From contig NZ_AUCB01000012.1 in the NCBI RefSeq assembly GCF_000429545.1, forward strand, positions 62,001 through 126,000: DNA of 64,000 bases, read 5' to 3'. This DNA comes from Arenibacter certesii DSM 19833 (GTDB taxonomy: Bacteria; Bacteroidota; Bacteroidia; Flavobacteriales; Flavobacteriaceae). The position numbers and the translations under genes are program-made. The notes below the pieces were generated by a model. It saw nothing but the letters and a program-made list of their open reading frames with translations, was not told the DNA's origin and did not search any database. How positions within the stretch are numbered: the stretch's first letter is position 1; each line of letters opens with the position of its first letter. Below, one piece after another: positions 44,689-64,000 of the stretch.

Positions 44689-44761
44689 GGTGCCTTAGCT
44701 CAGTTGGTAGAGCAATGGACTGAAAATCCATGTGTCCCTGGTTCGATTCCTGGAGGCACCA
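44689..44761 (+). tRNA. tRNA-Phe (anticodon GAA)
   Basis: The 73-base cloverleaf starts GGTGCCT and ends AGGCACC-A, a perfect 7-bp acceptor stem. The D arm is GCTC AGTTGGTAG AGC. The anticodon stem ATGGA/TCCAT encloses the loop CTGAAAA, giving anticodon GAA. The T arm CCTGG TTCGATT CCTGG is standard. No CCA is encoded. A terminator follows closely. Confidence 0.97.
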
Positions 44762-44765
44762 CCTC

Positions 44766-57542: not shown

Positions 57543-58910
57543 ATGATAGATAAAGCCATTTCTTATTGGAAACTTCACACCTTTCCAATTTTAATGGTCC
57601 TTACCTCCCTTCTATTTTATTCCACCTTTGGCTATCATTTACCACGAACAGATTTTATAAAGCTAATTTCTCTGTATTTCGCGCTGTTCTTTTTATGCTA
57701 TAAACTGATTCAGTTCGAGAAATGGAACTTTACCTTTCTAATTGTTTCTGGCACCTTATTCAGGATGGTTTTTCTCTTTTCCGAACCCAATCTATCGCAG
57801 GATTTCTATAGATTTGTTTGGGATGGACAACTGATTATCAATGGCATTAACCCTTACTTACATTTACCCAAAGATCTAGTACTGGATCTCCACCGAAAAT
57901 TCCCCAATGCCATGGAGTTATATAATGGAATGGGCGATTTAAGTGCATCCAACTACAGTAATTACCCACCATTAAACCAACTTATTTTTGCATTATCTGC
58001 TTTACTAACAGGTAACAGTACCATGGGTAGTATAATTATAATGCGAATTATCATAATTCTTGCAGATTTGGGCATCCTTTATTATGGAAGAAAGTTGCTC
58101 AAAAAACTGAATAAGTCATCCCATCTCATATTTTGGTATTTTTTAAATCCGCTGGTCATTTTAGAACTAACAGGCAACCTCCATTTTGAAGGAGTAATGT
58201 TATTCTTTTTTATCTGCTCCCTATACTTACTAAATCAAAATAAATGGATTTTAGCTGCAGTGGTTTACGCCTTGTCCATTTCTATAAAACTTGTCCCTCT
58301 GATGTTTCTGCCCCTATTTCTGAAATACCTTGGATTAAAAAGAAGTATGATGTTCTACGTGCTAGTAGGCGGAGTTACACTTTTACTAGCACTCCCTTTT
58401 TATGCGCCAGAATTTATCTCCAATTACTCTCAGACCATAGGGCTTTGGTTCTCCAATTTCGAGTTTAATGCCAGTATCTATAAAATGGTGAAATATATTG
58501 GAGTCCAATGGGATGCCAAACCTTGGGAGCTAATTAAAACATACGGCAAAATCATTCCCATAATTATTATTGCTTGGGTTGGCCTTATTACTTATATACG
58601 GAACAACAAAAACGTAAACAGCTTAATAACTTCCATGTTATGGATACTTAGTCTCTATTACTTTTTATCTGCTACCGTTCATCCCTGGTACATTATATTT
58701 TTAGTACTACTCGGTCTGTTTTCCAAGTTCAGATTTCCATTATTATGGTCTTTAACTATCTTTTTAAGCTATTTCGCCTATTCCAATGCTGCCTATAAAG
58801 AAAGCGGACTAATATTGATTCTTGAGTATATTGTTATTTACGGCTTTATGTTTTATGAAATAAGTAGATTACAAGTTAAAAATCAACTATTTCATAAAAA
58901 TTCACTCTAG
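57543..58910 (+). CDS. Polytopic GT87/mannosyltransferase-like membrane protein
   Basis: The 455-residue protein has about ten membrane helices and a first loop with SEPNLSQDFYRFVWDGQLI, where acidic residues match the catalytic loop of GT-C lipid-phosphate-sugar transferases (DUF2029/GT87). NPYLHLPKD also resembles that class. It would use a polyprenyl-phosphate sugar on the outer face of the inner membrane. The two upstream GT2 genes could supply such a donor. The sugar and acceptor are unknown. Confidence 0.78.
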   Translation: MIDKAISYWKLHTFPILMVLTSLLFYSTFGYHLPRTDFIKLISLYFALFFLCYKLIQFEKWNFTFLIVSGTLFRMVFLFSEPNLSQDFYRFVWDGQLIINGINPYLHLPKDLVLDLHRKFPNAMELYNGMGDLSASNYSNYPPLNQLIFALSALLTGNSTMGSIIIMRIIIILADLGILYYGRKLLKKLNKSSHLIFWYFLNPLVILELTGNLHFEGVMLFFFICSLYLLNQNKWILAAVVYALSISIKLVPLMFLPLFLKYLGLKRSMMFYVLVGGVTLLLALPFYAPEFISNYSQTIGLWFSNFEFNASIYKMVKYIGVQWDAKPWELIKTYGKIIPIIIIAWVGLITYIRNNKNVNSLITSMLWILSLYYFLSATVHPWYIIFLVLLGLFSKFRFPLLWSLTIFLSYFAYSNAAYKESGLILILEYIVIYGFMFYEISRLQVKNQLFHKNSL

Positions 58911-58935: not shown

Positions 58936-58943
58936 TACTTTTG
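58936..58943 (+). promoter_or_regulatory. -7 element before the arginine leader peptide
   Basis: TACTTTTG matches TAnnTTTG. It ends 9 bases before the leader ATG at 58953, so the transcript would start almost at the leader. No clear -33 box is seen. Confidence 0.5.
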
Positions 58944-58952
58944 ATATCAGCA

Positions 58953-59036
58953 ATGAATAAAACTACACACATATTAAATTATAACGAGGTGTCTAACCTT
59001 GCTTATTCATTTACGCCTACACGTCGTCGCCCGTAA
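58953..59036 (+). CDS. Candidate arginine-sensing leader peptide
   Basis: A 27-codon ORF too short for routine gene calling. It ends with three consecutive Arg codons (CGT CGT CGC) followed by Pro and stop (SFTPTRRRP). It stands just before the arginine operon and 9 bases after a -7 element. Downstream are competing short stems: CGCCC/GGGTG (59028-59032 with 59037-59041), CCAT/ATGG (59042-59045 with 59052-59055) and GGAAAT/ATTTCC (59054-59059 with 59070-59075). Slow decoding at the Arg codons when arginine is scarce could choose among them. No strong GC-rich terminator with T-run is seen, so the control may be translational. Confidence 0.7.
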   Translation: MNKTTHILNYNEVSNLAYSFTPTRRRP

Positions 59037-59075
59037 GGGTGCCATTCTGTTATGGAAATAGGTGAGTCCATTTCC
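59028..59075 (+). promoter_or_regulatory. Candidate attenuator stems of the arginine operon
   Basis: The three short stems overlap or share bases, so ATGG at 59052-59055 can pair with CCAT either upstream (59042-59045) or downstream (59068-59071). An in-frame ATG for the GNAT gene (59052) lies in the contested arm. Confidence 0.45.
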
Positions 59076-59123
59076 GCTCTCAAAAAACATCAATTTTTAA
59101 TTTCTAATTTAAAGCAACATTCA

Positions 59124-59744
59124 ATGAAGATTGTTATTGCTAACGACTCCCATTTTAAATATGCCGAGATCATCTGTGATACTATTGCGGAATCGGCCAA
59201 AGTTAGGGGCACAGGGATTGCAAAACGTACTCCCGAATATATTCAAAAAAGACTTCATAACGGAAATGCAGTCATTGCACTGGATGGTGATAAGTTTGCC
59301 GGTTTCTGTTATATTGAAGTTTGGGGACATGAGAAATTTGTCGCTAATTCTGGGCTTATCGTTCACCCTGATTATAGAAATCAGGGATTGGCCAAAAGAA
59401 TAAAAAAAGAAATTTTTAATCTTTCTAGGTCCAAGTTTCCAGATGCAAAAATATTTGGTATCACAACCGGATTGGCCGTAATGAAAATGAATTACGAATT
59501 GGGCTATAAACCAGTCACCTTTTCGGAGCTTACCACAGATCCAGAATTTTGGAAAGGTTGCCAAACCTGTAAGAACTTCGATATTCTGACCAGAACGGAG
59601 CAGAAAATGTGCCTTTGTACTGGTATGTTATACGACCCTGCCATAAAAACAAAAGCTAGCGGAATGGAAAAAGTAAATTCTAAGGCTTTTAAAAGGCTGA
59701 AAAGCATAAAAGAAAGCCTTTTCTTAAGTAAGAAAACTAAATAA
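59124..59744 (+). CDS. GNAT N-acyltransferase at the head of the arginine operon
   Basis: I chose the ATG at 59124 (MKIVIANDSHFKYAEII); an in-frame ATG at 59052 gives an unusual 24-residue extension. The 206-residue protein has a GNAT fold with the acetyl-CoA loop HPDYRNQGLAKRI (about 81-93). A C-terminal Cys cluster, CQTC (146, 149) and CLC (163, 165), could bind zinc. Its place just before argG and argC suggests that it acylates glutamate in the first step of arginine synthesis. Bacteroidota are known to use N-succinyl intermediates; the acyl donor here is not proven. Confidence 0.85.
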   Translation: MKIVIANDSHFKYAEIICDTIAESAKVRGTGIAKRTPEYIQKRLHNGNAVIALDGDKFAGFCYIEVWGHEKFVANSGLIVHPDYRNQGLAKRIKKEIFNLSRSKFPDAKIFGITTGLAVMKMNYELGYKPVTFSELTTDPEFWKGCQTCKNFDILTRTEQKMCLCTGMLYDPAIKTKASGMEKVNSKAFKRLKSIKESLFLSKKTK

Positions 59745-59789: not shown

Positions 59790-60980
59790 ATGAAAAAATT
59801 AGTTTTGGCCTATAGTGGAGGATTAGACACCTCTTATTGCGCAAAATATTTATCTAAAGACAAAGGGTTTGAAGTACATGCCGTTAGTGTTAATACGGGA
59901 GGATTCCCACAGGAAGAAATAGATCGCATCCACAAAAAAGCATTGGAGCTTGGTGCTACCAGCTATACCTCTATAGACGCAGTACAGACGTTCTATGAGC
60001 AGGTAGTTAAGTATTTAATTTACGGAAATGTACTGAAAAATAATACCTACCCACTTTCTGTTAGTGCAGAACGAATTGTGCAGGCCATAGAAATAGTAAA
60101 TCACGCCAAAAAAATAGGCGCTAAATATATTGCCCACGGTAGCACAGGCGCTGGAAATGACCAAGTGAGGTTTGATATGATATTTCAGATTGTAGCCCCA
60201 GAAATAGAAATTATCACCCCTATTAGGGACAATAAACTATCTAGGGAAGTAGAGATAGAATATCTAAAAAGCAATGGTGTGGATTATCCATGGGAAAAGG
60301 CCAAATACTCCATTAACAGAGGACTTTGGGGCACTTCCGTTGGTGGAGACGAGACACTCACCTCCCACAAACCGTTACCAGACCATGCTTTCCCAAGTCA
60401 ATTACAGGAAACTGAGCCCACCCAAATTAAATTAACATTCCACAAAGGAGAACTTATTGCGTTAGATGGCGACAATGACACCCCAGTAAACAATATTGTA
60501 AAATTAGAAGCCTTAGCCTCCAAATATGCCATTGGTAGAGATATCCATGTTGGTGATACCATTATTGGTATTAAAGGTAGAGTAGGTTTTGAGGCTCCGG
60601 CATCACTAATCATCATAAAGGCGCACCATTTACTGGAAAAACATACCCTTAGCAAATGGCAACAGTTTCAAAAAGAGCAACAAGCAAGTTTTTATGGCAT
60701 GCTTTTGCACGAAGGAAACTATATGGATGAGGTAATGCGCAACATAGAAGCTTTCCTTACCGATACCCAGAGAAATGTATCAGGCGATGTTTTTGTTACT
60801 CTTCACCCATACCGATTTGAATTGGACGGAATATCTTCTCCTCACGACCTGATGAATGCTTCTTTTGGCAGTTATGGGGAAATGAACGAAGATTGGACGG
60901 CTGATGACGCCAAAGGTTTTATAAAAATCCTTTCCAATCCTGGGAAAATATACAATCATGTAAATCAACAAGATGACTAA
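59790..60980 (+). CDS. argG: Argininosuccinate synthase
   Basis: ArgG joins citrulline and aspartate with ATP. The 396-residue protein opens KLVLAYSGGLDTSYCAKYL, the ATP-pyrophosphatase motif. It also has AHGSTGAGNDQVRFD and KYSINRGLWGTSVGG, both family blocks. It is cytosolic. It starts 45 bases after the GNAT gene and overlaps argC by 8 bases. Expression is probably set by the upstream leader region. Confidence 0.97.
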   Translation: MKKLVLAYSGGLDTSYCAKYLSKDKGFEVHAVSVNTGGFPQEEIDRIHKKALELGATSYTSIDAVQTFYEQVVKYLIYGNVLKNNTYPLSVSAERIVQAIEIVNHAKKIGAKYIAHGSTGAGNDQVRFDMIFQIVAPEIEIITPIRDNKLSREVEIEYLKSNGVDYPWEKAKYSINRGLWGTSVGGDETLTSHKPLPDHAFPSQLQETEPTQIKLTFHKGELIALDGDNDTPVNNIVKLEALASKYAIGRDIHVGDTIIGIKGRVGFEAPASLIIIKAHHLLEKHTLSKWQQFQKEQQASFYGMLLHEGNYMDEVMRNIEAFLTDTQRNVSGDVFVTLHPYRFELDGISSPHDLMNASFGSYGEMNEDWTADDAKGFIKILSNPGKIYNHVNQQDD

Positions 60981-61947
60981 AGTAGGAATCATAGGGGGAT
61001 CCGGATATACAGGCGGCGAACTTATTCGAATTCTTTTAAACCACCCTAAAGCGAAAATAGACTTTGTCTATAGCACCACTAGGGCAGACAAAAAGATTAC
61101 GACTGCCCATCCCGACCTGTTGGGGACAACAGATCTAAAATTTACAGGCACCGTAAATCCAAATGTAGATGTAGTATTCTTATGCCTAGGACATGGTAAT
61201 TCCACTAAGTTCTTAGAGGAAAACCCATTTTCTGAAGCTACCAAGATCATAGATCTAAGCAACGACTTCAGACTGGCGGAAGATGCGCTTTTTAATGGTA
61301 AAAACTTTGTATACGGGCTGCCCGAGCTAAAGAAAGAGGAAATTAAATCTGCTAATTATATCGCAAATCCTGGCTGTTTTGCTACTGCAATACAATTGGC
61401 TTTACTACCCTTGGCAAAGGCAAAACTATTGAATAGCCCAGTTCATATTAATGCCGTAACCGGCAGTACCGGTGCAGGCGCAAGCCTTTCCCCAACTGCT
61501 CACTATAGCTGGAGGAACAATAACGTATCTTGGTATAAACCCTTTACCCATCAGCACCTTGGGGAAATTGAAGAAAGCTTGCATAGCCTTCAGGATGATA
61601 CCGGGGAATTGTTCTTTCTGCCCAATAGAGGAAACTTCACTAGAGGTATTTTGGCAACTGCTTATACTGAATTTAAAGGAAGTCTAGAAGAGGCCTACGC
61701 CTTGTATTCTGATTTTTATAAGGATGCTGTATTTACTCAAGTTACGGAGGAAGACCTCAACCTAAAACAAGTGGTGAATACCAACCAATGTCACATTCAT
61801 TTGCATAAGCACAATAATACCCTCCTAGTCACCTCCGCAATAGATAACCTCTTAAAAGGAGCATCGGGACAGGCAGTGCAAAACATGAACTTGGCTTTTG
61901 GCTTCGAAGAGAATACAGGTTTGCAATTAAAAGCAGGTGTCTTTTAG
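60973..61947 (+). CDS. argC: N-acyl-gamma-glutamyl-phosphate reductase
   Basis: ArgC reduces N-acylglutamyl phosphate to the semialdehyde with NADPH. The 324-residue protein has the nucleotide motif GIIGGSGYTGGELIRIL and the catalytic Cys135 in YIANPGCFATAIQ. In Bacteroidota the natural substrate may be the N-succinyl form. It overlaps argG by 8 bases. An 11-bp inverted repeat follows before proC. Confidence 0.96.
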   Translation: MTKVGIIGGSGYTGGELIRILLNHPKAKIDFVYSTTRADKKITTAHPDLLGTTDLKFTGTVNPNVDVVFLCLGHGNSTKFLEENPFSEATKIIDLSNDFRLAEDALFNGKNFVYGLPELKKEEIKSANYIANPGCFATAIQLALLPLAKAKLLNSPVHINAVTGSTGAGASLSPTAHYSWRNNNVSWYKPFTHQHLGEIEESLHSLQDDTGELFFLPNRGNFTRGILATAYTEFKGSLEEAYALYSDFYKDAVFTQVTEEDLNLKQVVNTNQCHIHLHKHNNTLLVTSAIDNLLKGASGQAVQNMNLAFGFEENTGLQLKAGVF

Positions 61948-62071: not shown

Positions 62072-62866
62072 ATGAAAATAGCCATTATAGGTGCCGGAAA
62101 TTTAGGAATGTCCATTGCCGAAGGTGTTTTAAGCACTAACGGAGCCACCTCCATGATCCTCACTAAAAGAAATCTGGGCGATCTTAAAGAATTGGAAAAA
62201 TATGGTATCGTAAGTACCACCTCCGATAATAGAGAGGCAGTAAGTAAATCTGATATATTGATTTTTACTGTGCAACCAGGGCAATTCACAAAAATTTTGA
62301 ATGAGGTAAAGGACCTTCTCACAGACAAGCATGTGATTATCTCCACCATAACTGGATTTAGTATTGCCAAAATAGAAGAAGTTATTGGGCCCGACAACTA
62401 TATTATTAGGGCCATGCCCAATACCGCTATTTCAGTAGGAAAATCCATGACCTGTATATGTAGCAATGAAAAGGGTCAAAAACGTATAGAATTAGCTAAA
62501 GCTATTTTCAACAGAATGGGTCATACTCTACAAATTCCCGAGCAACAAATGCAGGCCGCTACCGTTATCTGCGCCAGTGGAATCGCTTTTTGGATGCGTA
62601 TGATACGTGCCACCACTCAAGGTGCCATACAACTTGGTTTCGATGCTAAGGAGGCTCAGGAATTGGCCATGCATACCTGTAATGGGGCCGCAAGCCTATT
62701 AATTGAATCGGATAGCCATCCAGAATATGAAATAGATAAGGTTACCACTCCAAGGGGTTGTACCATATCTGGACTTAACGAAATGGAACACCAGGGCCTA
62801 AGCTCCTCTCTAATTAGGGGAATTTTAGCGTCATTTGATAAAATAAACGAAATTAAAAAAGAATAG
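62072..62866 (+). CDS. proC: Pyrroline-5-carboxylate reductase
   Basis: ProC makes proline from pyrroline-5-carboxylate. The 264-residue protein starts KIAIIGAGNLGMSIAEGVL (NADPH fold) and has IIRAMPNTAISVGKSMT and a late TTPRGCTISGLNEME block, as expected. Its place inside the arginine operon links proline and arginine synthesis, both from glutamate. It lies 124 bases after argC and 59 before argD. Confidence 0.95.
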   Translation: MKIAIIGAGNLGMSIAEGVLSTNGATSMILTKRNLGDLKELEKYGIVSTTSDNREAVSKSDILIFTVQPGQFTKILNEVKDLLTDKHVIISTITGFSIAKIEEVIGPDNYIIRAMPNTAISVGKSMTCICSNEKGQKRIELAKAIFNRMGHTLQIPEQQMQAATVICASGIAFWMRMIRATTQGAIQLGFDAKEAQELAMHTCNGAASLLIESDSHPEYEIDKVTTPRGCTISGLNEMEHQGLSSSLIRGILASFDKINEIKKE

Positions 62867-62925: not shown

Positions 62926-64000
62926 ATGAAATTATTTGATGTATATCCGCTTTACGATGTAACCCCCGTTTCGGCAAAGGGAATTGTAGTTACCGATGAT
63001 AAAGGACAAGATTATTTAGATTTTTATGGAGGTCACGCCGTAATTTCTATAGGGCACTCCCACCCCACCTACGTAAACCGATTAAAAGATCAGTTAGAGA
63101 AAATTGGTTTTTATAGCAATGCCATCCAAAACCCTATTCAGGAAGAGCTGGCGAACAAATTGGGTAAACTTTCCAATTGTGAGGACTACAATCTATTCCT
63201 TTGTAATTCTGGTGCAGAAGCCAATGAAAATGCTTTAAAACTAGCTTCGTTCCAAAATGGAAAATCACGTGTCATTTCCTTTAAAAATGGATTTCATGGT
63301 AGAACCTCCGCAGCGGTGGCGGTTACCGATAATGAAAAGATTAATGCCCCTCTCAACAAACAACAAAAGGTAAGCATCCTCCCCTTTAATGACCTGCAAG
63401 GCTTTATCAGCGAGATTAGCAAAGGGGACGTTTGTGCGGTTATCATAGAAACTATACAAGGAGTTGGTGGTTTAGATATGCCCTCACCCGAATTTTATGA
63501 GAACATCGCAAAATTGTGTAAGGAGCATGATGTAATCCTTATTGCAGACGAAGTTCAATGTGGTTATGGAAGAAGCGGTAAATTCTTTGCTTTCCAACAT
63601 TTTAATATTAAACCAGATATTATCACCATAGCTAAGGGTATGGGGAACGGATTTCCCATTGGAGGGGTACTGATCCATGACAGCATAAAAGCTTCTTACG
63701 GACTTTTAGGTACCACTTTCGGTGGAAACCATTTAGCCTGCGCTGCAGGACTAGCAGTTTTAGAGGTAATTGAAAAAGAAAATCTCATAGAGAATTCAGC
63801 GGAACTTTTTGATTACTTCATGTTAAAAGCAGCTACAATTCCTCAAGTGAAACAGGTAAAAGGAATGGGACTTATGTTGGGGCTAGAATTTGATTTTGAG
63901 GTAGGAGAATTGAGAAAAAAACTAATTCATAATCAGCATATGTTTACAGGAGGTGCCAATAATAAACATGTATTGCGAATATTACCAGCACTGAATATAT
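62926..64000 (+). CDS. argD: Acylornithine aminotransferase (3' end outside window)
   Basis: The gene runs off the window end after 358 codons. The class III aminotransferase has FYGGHAVISIGHSHP, CNSGAEANENALKLA, HGRTSAA, the Asp208 of LIADEVQCGYGRSG and the PLP Lys237 in TIAKGMGNGFPIGG. It moves an amino group to N-acylglutamate semialdehyde in arginine synthesis. It is the fifth gene of the operon. Family members also act on succinylornithine or GABA, but the context favours ArgD. Confidence 0.93.
   Translation, partial: MKLFDVYPLYDVTPVSAKGIVVTDDKGQDYLDFYGGHAVISIGHSHPTYVNRLKDQLEKIGFYSNAIQNPIQEELANKLGKLSNCEDYNLFLCNSGAEANENALKLASFQNGKSRVISFKNGFHGRTSAAVAVTDNEKINAPLNKQQKVSILPFNDLQGFISEISKGDVCAVIIETIQGVGGLDMPSPEFYENIAKLCKEHDVILIADEVQCGYGRSGKFFAFQHFNIKPDIITIAKGMGNGFPIGGVLIHDSIKASYGLLGTTFGGNHLACAAGLAVLEVIEKENLIENSAELFDYFMLKAATIPQVKQVKGMGLMLGLEFDFEVGELRKKLIHNQHMFTGGANNKHVLRILPALNI

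Follow-up and report, generated by a model that had tools for sequence, protein, structure and literature searches.

A conserved arginine-codon leader and RNA hairpins upstream of an arginine-synthesis operon in Arenibacter certesii: a probable attenuator without a strong terminator

Introduction

Arginine synthesis is usually described as being controlled by ArgR, while the trp, his, leu, and thr attenuators rely on a leader ORF with a run of codons for the product amino acid, and on hairpins that overlap the end of that ORF. Arenibacter certesii DSM 19833 (Flavobacteriaceae) has a short ORF ending in three consecutive Arg codons directly upstream of a set of arginine-synthesis genes, which raises the question of whether this is a regulatory leader and, if so, how it might work. 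We consider it here from the sequence of a 64,000-nt stretch of contig NZ_AUCB01000012.1 (“the window,” to which all coordinates refer), and from the corresponding loci in its relatives. An arginine-responsive leader-peptide attenuator of the first arginine-synthesis operon, operating without a strong terminator, seems the best reading, with a probability of about 0.7; that the leader senses arginine, by whatever output, appears highly probable from the comparisons.

The locus and its genes

The leader ORF (MNKTTHILNYNEVSNLAYSFTPTRRRP; 27 codons, 58953–59036, + strand) ends with CGT CGT CGC CCG TAA; the putative sensor codons, the Arg run, occupy 59022–59030 (+). Its ATG is 9 bases 3′ of a TAnnTTTG box, TACTTTTG (58936–58943, +), which, by its sequence and the flavobacterial −7 consensus (TAnnTTTG), is a likely −7 promoter element. 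Transcription would then probably begin at the leader ATG or within a few bases of it. Among 106 rows, which count 13 places twice, 64 have the strict TAnnTTTG form, and the box matches [TC]GTACNTT in 91 of 93 places, with the first ATG 8–11 bases 3′ of it in 87. A preliminary description of this DNA had placed a 27-codon ORF, with three Arg codons and a Pro at its end, between a −7-like box and the genes GNAT-argG-argC-proC-argD; both the ORF and these positions are borne out.

The first of these genes (59127–59744, +) encodes a GNAT acetyltransferase (Pfam Acetyltransf_1). Its start had been put at 59052, but TAA codons fall within the would-be upstream extension in 13 of 18 matches from the genus, so that the ATG at 59127 is, by this comparison, most likely the start. 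The protein is 98% identical to its Arenibacter latericius counterpart, and its nearest solved structures are distant GNATs (E 4e-4); gene order, together with what passages of two papers report on BT3761 (PMC7311316, PMC9026213), suggests that it is likely an N-acylglutamate synthase of the ArgA2/BT3761 type. The arginine-synthesis genes that follow 3′ of the leader, all on the + strand, were identified by NCBIfam profiles: argG (59790–60980; TIGR00032), argC (60973–61947; TIGR01850), and proC (62072–62866; TIGR00112) score above their cut-offs, while argD (62926–64000; TIGR00707, E 1.5e-106) scores below the whole-protein cut-off because the gene runs off the end of the window. Three genomes of the family (G525, G557, and G529; loci L199–L201, E 7e-67 to 4e-65) have a second GNAT relative.

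Among named genomes, a search with the GNAT protein found 542 relatives, of which the best 80 were compared; these come from genera including Arenibacter, Maribacter, Zobellia, Muricauda/Allomuricauda, Flagellimonas, Pricia, Cellulophaga, and Eudoraea. The order GT-GNAT-argG-argC-proC-argD is found in 75 of these best 80; in the remaining five the sequence stops short, 690 to 3655 bases past the first base of GNAT. The gene upstream of the leader (57543–58910) encodes a membrane protein, presumably a glycosyltransferase (GT), and holds this position in all 80 of the best 80 of 542, making the neighborhood unusually constant.

Conservation of the leader

The exact leader pattern is found in 16 of 18 genomes of the genus, the other two having the variants TTRTRRRP-stop and SFTPTRTRRRP-stop. 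Across the family, a strict 27-base pattern occurs in 8 of 397 genomes, in 6 of 237 genera, with no hits for the reversed-pattern control among the matches listed; at each of the loci L023–L027, and at four loci of the genus, this GNAT gene and argG lie 3′ of the leader. Among the best 80 of the 542 GNAT relatives the leader ends in RRP-stop in 77, and in RPRP-stop in three Eudoraea loci, assigned by eye. Ahead of the Arg run the peptide differs greatly from one genus to another; within the genus SFTPT is mostly kept. The expectation raised in the preliminary description, that the Arg run and stems would be conserved while the rest drifts, thus describes these loci well: most other residues drift, and the stems are kept. 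The refuting case named there, an Arg run lost in relatives, did not arise.

The reading frame is conserved along with the codons, and comparison establishes both. In a test beginning at the promoter box and allowing any frame (loci L099 and L105, which have no box by pattern, were excluded), 87 of 91 places have a first ATG whose frame runs open into the Arg run, and in four the first ATG is out of frame; the closest four first ATGs are 2–4 bases after the box. Of the alternative frames, +1 is closed in 87 of these places and +2 in 45. In 46 non-redundant leaders, Arg fills the codon directly before the fixed CGC (−1) in 43, the one before that (−2) also in 43, and −3 in 18; each of the three positions uses CGT in some leaders and CGC in others.

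The choice of Arg codons is also distinctive. Arg makes up 149 of 1141 codons in the leaders, as opposed to 317 of 8200 in GNAT of the non-redundant named loci; CGT and CGC account for 138 of those 149, versus 77 of the 317 in GNAT, where AGA is commonest (122 of 317). CGT and CGC are decoded by one tRNA-Arg (ICG), and given this preference the leader looks like a sensor tuned to a single tRNA. The conservation of the leader is far beyond chance, and the idea that the ORF is a chance one, contradicted by its conservation across genera, can be dismissed.

RNA hairpins in and after the leader

Four hairpins, P1–P4, can be proposed on the + strand. P1 (58952–59011), predicted by folding and by comparison of swapped arms, would pair the start region AATGAATAA (58952–58960) with TTATTCATT (59003–59011); P2 (58985–59001) is a hairpin inside the ORF, CGAGG...CCTTG; P3 (59028–59041), from the predicted fold and conservation of pairing, is CGCCC-GUAA-GGGUG around the stop codon; and P4 (59054–59075), from covariation, is a bulged hairpin, GGAAAU-A-GG-UGAGU-CC-AUUUCC. 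A short ACATAT sequence between the P1 and P2 arms (58969–58974) is kept in many leaders.

A co-evolution scan of 1240 window pairs in 46 leaders, in which cognate arms were compared with arms swapped between leaders, gave its strongest signal for P2 (t −6.6), which also has double-sided changes. P1 windows, with cognate arms pairing better than swapped ones, gave t −3.8 to −3.2 and P4 t −2.9, while the opposite tail of the scan reached +4.4, so that P1 alone (t −3.8) is within its noise. P1 is backed by a run of neighboring windows and by folding of the ORF body, which is better than in shuffles (mean z −1.38; 63 of 73 leaders below zero), and with this moderate support is likely a start-region helix. 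The full leader of the window by itself is ordinary against shuffles (z −1.43). Column covariation on a sequence alignment was dominated by ancestry, with P1 and P2 misaligned, and RNAalifold on that alignment kept only P3 and P4.

P3 and P4 were tested for covariation in a diverse set of 45 sequences drawn from 101 loci; relatedness can inflate such shuffle tests. Jointly, 95.2% of their cells are paired, as opposed to at most 60.7% in slid versions; there are 18 double-change cells (5.1 in shuffles; reached in 0 of 500), a covariation of 0.123 (0.056; 0 of 500), 4 pairs with double changes (1.8; 9 of 500), and 10 further pair types (7.7; 25 of 500). All four double-change pairs belong to P4, which has them in 4 of its 8 pairs and 97.2% of cells paired. 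P3 has 92.0% paired and no double changes, and its outermost pair is lost in 16 of the 45. P2 and P4 are established by comparison. The preliminary description had proposed mutually exclusive stems after the ORF; the stems (P3 and P4) are real, but they fold together.

Within P4, AGGUGAGUCC is near-invariant: the apex AGGUG.GUCC is unchanged in all 45 diverse sequences, and GGTG[AT]GTCC is found in 101 of 101 loci (L028–L128), 96 of them with A. A second register, ATGGA/TCCAT, is possible inside P4, but covariation tracks GGAAAT/ATTTCC instead. No Rfam family was found for these hairpins: within the window only a tRNA, located away from the leader, reaches the gathering level, and three weak matches, to eukaryotic RNA families (E 0.74–2.8), are far below the cut-offs. 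P4 is thus a conserved RNA motif not in the Rfam copy searched. The only tRNA in the window is a tRNA-Phe (GAA) at 44689–44763.

Two broader roles for P4 were considered and set aside. AGGUGA[G]UCC is complementary to the 16S 3′ end with one bulge, but a mimic of the 16S tail is left as an idea, the loop being UGUGU in 5 of 101 loci. As a genome-wide module, AGGTGAGTCC occurs ten times in the A. certesii genome (once for the reversed control), but 8 of the nine other copies have at most 3 of 6 flanking pairs. An intergenic copy (L133; G000:C4:88096–88105) has 5 of 6.

How the leader might act

That the leader senses arginine, which way it controls the operon, and what P3 does we infer along the following lines. 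A ribosome would load at once on the nearly leaderless ORF. With charged tRNA-Arg reading CGY scarce, it would stall on the CGT/CGC run near the ORF end, covering the P1 3′ arm and the P3 5′ arm; neither hairpin would fold, and the operon would be on. With arginine plentiful, it would reach the stop codon inside P3 and depart, P1–P4 would fold, and expression would fall.

Masked folding of 41 leaders, with an assumed ribosome footprint, is consistent with this scheme. The expected number of P1 pairs is 3.72 in free RNA, drops to 0.29 when the A site holds an Arg codon, and is 3.86 when it holds the stop; P3 is at 0.85 in free RNA and 0.00 under the ribosome, the latter by construction. Weighing against the scheme, P4 is predicted to form similarly in every ribosome state (0.58–0.69), and its near-invariant loop is left unaccounted for. 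By the P1 and P3 values a ribosome stalled on the Arg run would open both P1 and P3, and one that has departed would allow both. Also against the scheme, P3 has no double changes, and since a ribosome at the stop codon covers it too, it would separate bound from released rather than starved from fed; only P1, lost under an Arg-stalled ribosome and kept under one at the stop, would separate starved from fed.

As output, the nascent transcript would be lost prematurely, at P3/P4 or shortly beyond, through a pause, a weak terminator, or Rho. P3, perhaps with P4, would act as a weak polymerase stop or pause, blocked by the stalled ribosome with no need for an antiterminator. A terminator scan flags P3 and P2 (2 found, vs 0.2 in shuffles), but their stems are short and their U-runs broken, in keeping with the earlier remark that no strong terminator is visible; the ten bases after P3, a five-pair hairpin, average 49% T in the 41 leaders. 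A T directly precedes P4 in 97 of 101 loci, 11–13 bases after P3 at the commonest spacings. A T at 11–13 bases after a hairpin fits a hairpin pause, and as a conjecture this could be a pause site after P3. With a stalled ribosome in place, the 3′ arm of P3 had no partner that recurred among the 41 leaders, and the 1240 window pairs yielded no co-evolving partner beyond P1, P2, and P4, though alternatives formed by invariant parts would escape such a scan. The arginine attenuator layout first proposed for this DNA is therefore upheld in its conserved Arg run, its stems, and its arginine operon, but not in any recurring antiterminator-like alternative. If the leader does sense arginine, a co-transcriptional output has slightly better than even odds.

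One rival is that the leader ribosome acts on translation, refolding the RNA so as to open or close the GNAT start, or feeding ribosomes to it. The missing strong terminator, which led the preliminary description to suggest a translational mechanism, would suit this, and a link of leader codons to a start site is proposed for the LEU element in part of an actinobacterial survey (PMC1262725). The suggestion is weakened by the predicted openness of the GNAT start, 0.53 in free RNA and 0.52 in three ribosome-bound states (41 leaders), and by the unconstrained frame from the Arg run to GNAT (28, 21, and 29 of 78 in the three frames), on which grounds readthrough into GNAT was also rejected. We regard it as rather unlikely, and judge premature transcript loss likelier than occlusion of the GNAT start.

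Control of mRNA stability is an equally modest contender: the stalled ribosome, or the folded P3–P4, would change how fast the operon mRNA decays, as has been suggested for Salmonella speF with RNase G, where passages of the report have the orf34 Arg codons acting partly through mRNA decay (PMC6386406). A ribosome stalled here would be placed near the 5′ end, but the sequence indicates no particular nuclease.

TnaC and SpeFL are nascent-peptide arrest systems that respond to a metabolite, and a peptide ending in RRP, rather than tRNA shortage, might similarly hold the ribosome at the Pro-stop, the signal being free arginine or a related metabolite. RP does precede the stop in all 80 of the best 80 of 542 named relatives, and the SFTPT mostly kept within the genus could be read the same way. 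Pairing in P3, however, accounts for the fixed CGC CCG; the residues before the Arg run differ widely between genera; and in five distant loci (L124, L127, L164, L165, and L171) the stop has moved beyond P3 and a hairpin is kept, which favors RNA structure over arrest at Pro-stop. Arrest is thus improbable, somewhat more so than either of the preceding alternatives.

Least likely among the functional alternatives is a ligand- or protein-binding RNA centered on P4, with the ORF incidental. A stem that covaries around a near-invariant bulge and loop is typical of a recognized motif, but such an RNA would leave the conserved reading frame, Arg codons, and CGY choice unaccounted for, and we give it little credence.

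Relation to known leaders

Returning to the ribosome-sensing attenuator, the leader resembles those of trp, his, leu, and thr in having product codons before a biosynthetic operon and hairpins overlapping the ORF end. It differs from them in having no long-U-run terminator and no recurring antiterminator, and in the extra hairpin, P4, with its near-invariant loop. Searched against Pfam up to E 1, the leader peptide matches nothing, the SpeFL/orf34 family PF10940 included, though a 27-residue query gives such a search little power.

One of the closest parallels is orf34 of Salmonella speF, whose consecutive Arg codons, in the passages available from that report (PMC6386406), transmit the arginine level without an intrinsic terminator. 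Short leader ORFs with such codons, folding of the mRNA altered by ribosome pausing at low arginine, hairpins at and after the stop codon, and a stop whose position matters are all points of likeness between orf34 and the model proposed here (PMC6386406). In the same passages, orf34 controls polyamine (ornithine decarboxylase) genes in gammaproteobacteria, as opposed to arginine synthesis; the speF start lies 516 nt into the mRNA, whereas the Arenibacter leader is short and nearly at the presumed transcript end; the orf34 peptide has a conserved domain, unlike the Arenibacter leader, with no Pfam match; and Rho and RNase G have been shown to act on speF (PMC6386406).

Leader peptides without obvious terminators are also described in parts of the actinobacterial survey, where the cys leaders and the LEU element similarly combine regulatory codons with missing attenuator components, but for another amino acid, in another phylum, and with other RNA structures; elsewhere, in its account, arginine genes are RNA-controlled by T-boxes (PMC1262725). 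Within the Flavobacteriaceae, clues for leader-peptide attenuation upstream of amino-acid operons are reported for Flavobacterium psychrophilum, and in the passages of that report on conserved 5′ elements pheA and hisG are named and arginine is not (PMC9723704). A search for histidine runs in the A. certesii genome itself was unspecific (39 matches, vs 26 in the reversed control). No arginine attenuator of this operon was found in the open-access literature, searched by titles and the beginnings of abstracts, and as far as literature and database searches show the element is new in its operon, lineage, and RNA anatomy. It offers a defined, conserved case in which to study the action of Bacteroidota leader peptides that have a near-leaderless start and no strong terminator.

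Distribution, ArgR, and tandem leaders

An RNA model of the element, R2, has matches at E ≤ 0.05 in 56 of 395 genomes of the order. Strong matches (E ≤ 3.1e-7) are found in 33 of the 395, one each and all in the family of the window; in the other 23 E is at least 3.3e-4, and in the 14 of these 23 that were examined the weak match is never near GNAT. A full-length model, R1, matches 21 of the 395. GNAT is present in 16 of 16 family genomes without a strong R2 match, one of which (L178) does carry the element, so the filtered search misses some. All 14 tested genomes of one genus, g128, which may be Flavobacterium, have GNAT and lack the element.

The Arg leader is a likely replacement for ArgR, reading arginine through the ribosome: a search of the order found no ArgR (PF02863) in any of 65 genomes, of which 33 carry the element, and 8 of 14 control genomes, including a Bacteroides, have it. 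The members of g128 searched have no ArgR either and yet do not carry the element, so that absence of ArgR is not by itself a predictor of the leader, and some other control must exist there.

In 14 distant places (L121–L124, L126–L128, L160, L162, L164–L166, L171, and L178; some assigned by eye) leaders are arranged in tandem, an Arg-rich ORF that ends in RRR, RRRF, RRC, or similar preceding a second ORF that carries P3 and P4. Four other distant places (L125, L155, L168, and L169) have a single leader. It is possible, though doubtful, that P3–P4 form a terminator-free output module, in which the leader ribosome would set the folding of P1 and P3, P4 (AGGUGAGUCC) would be recognized by a protein or by the machinery of transcription or translation, and, in those family members that have tandem Arg leaders, the upstream one might open the other. 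Translation of leader 1 may open leader 2, going by predicted folds. In several of 11 folds of the tandem loci, early codons of leader 1 can pair, 3′ of its stop codon, with a U-rich stretch that extends towards the start of leader 2.
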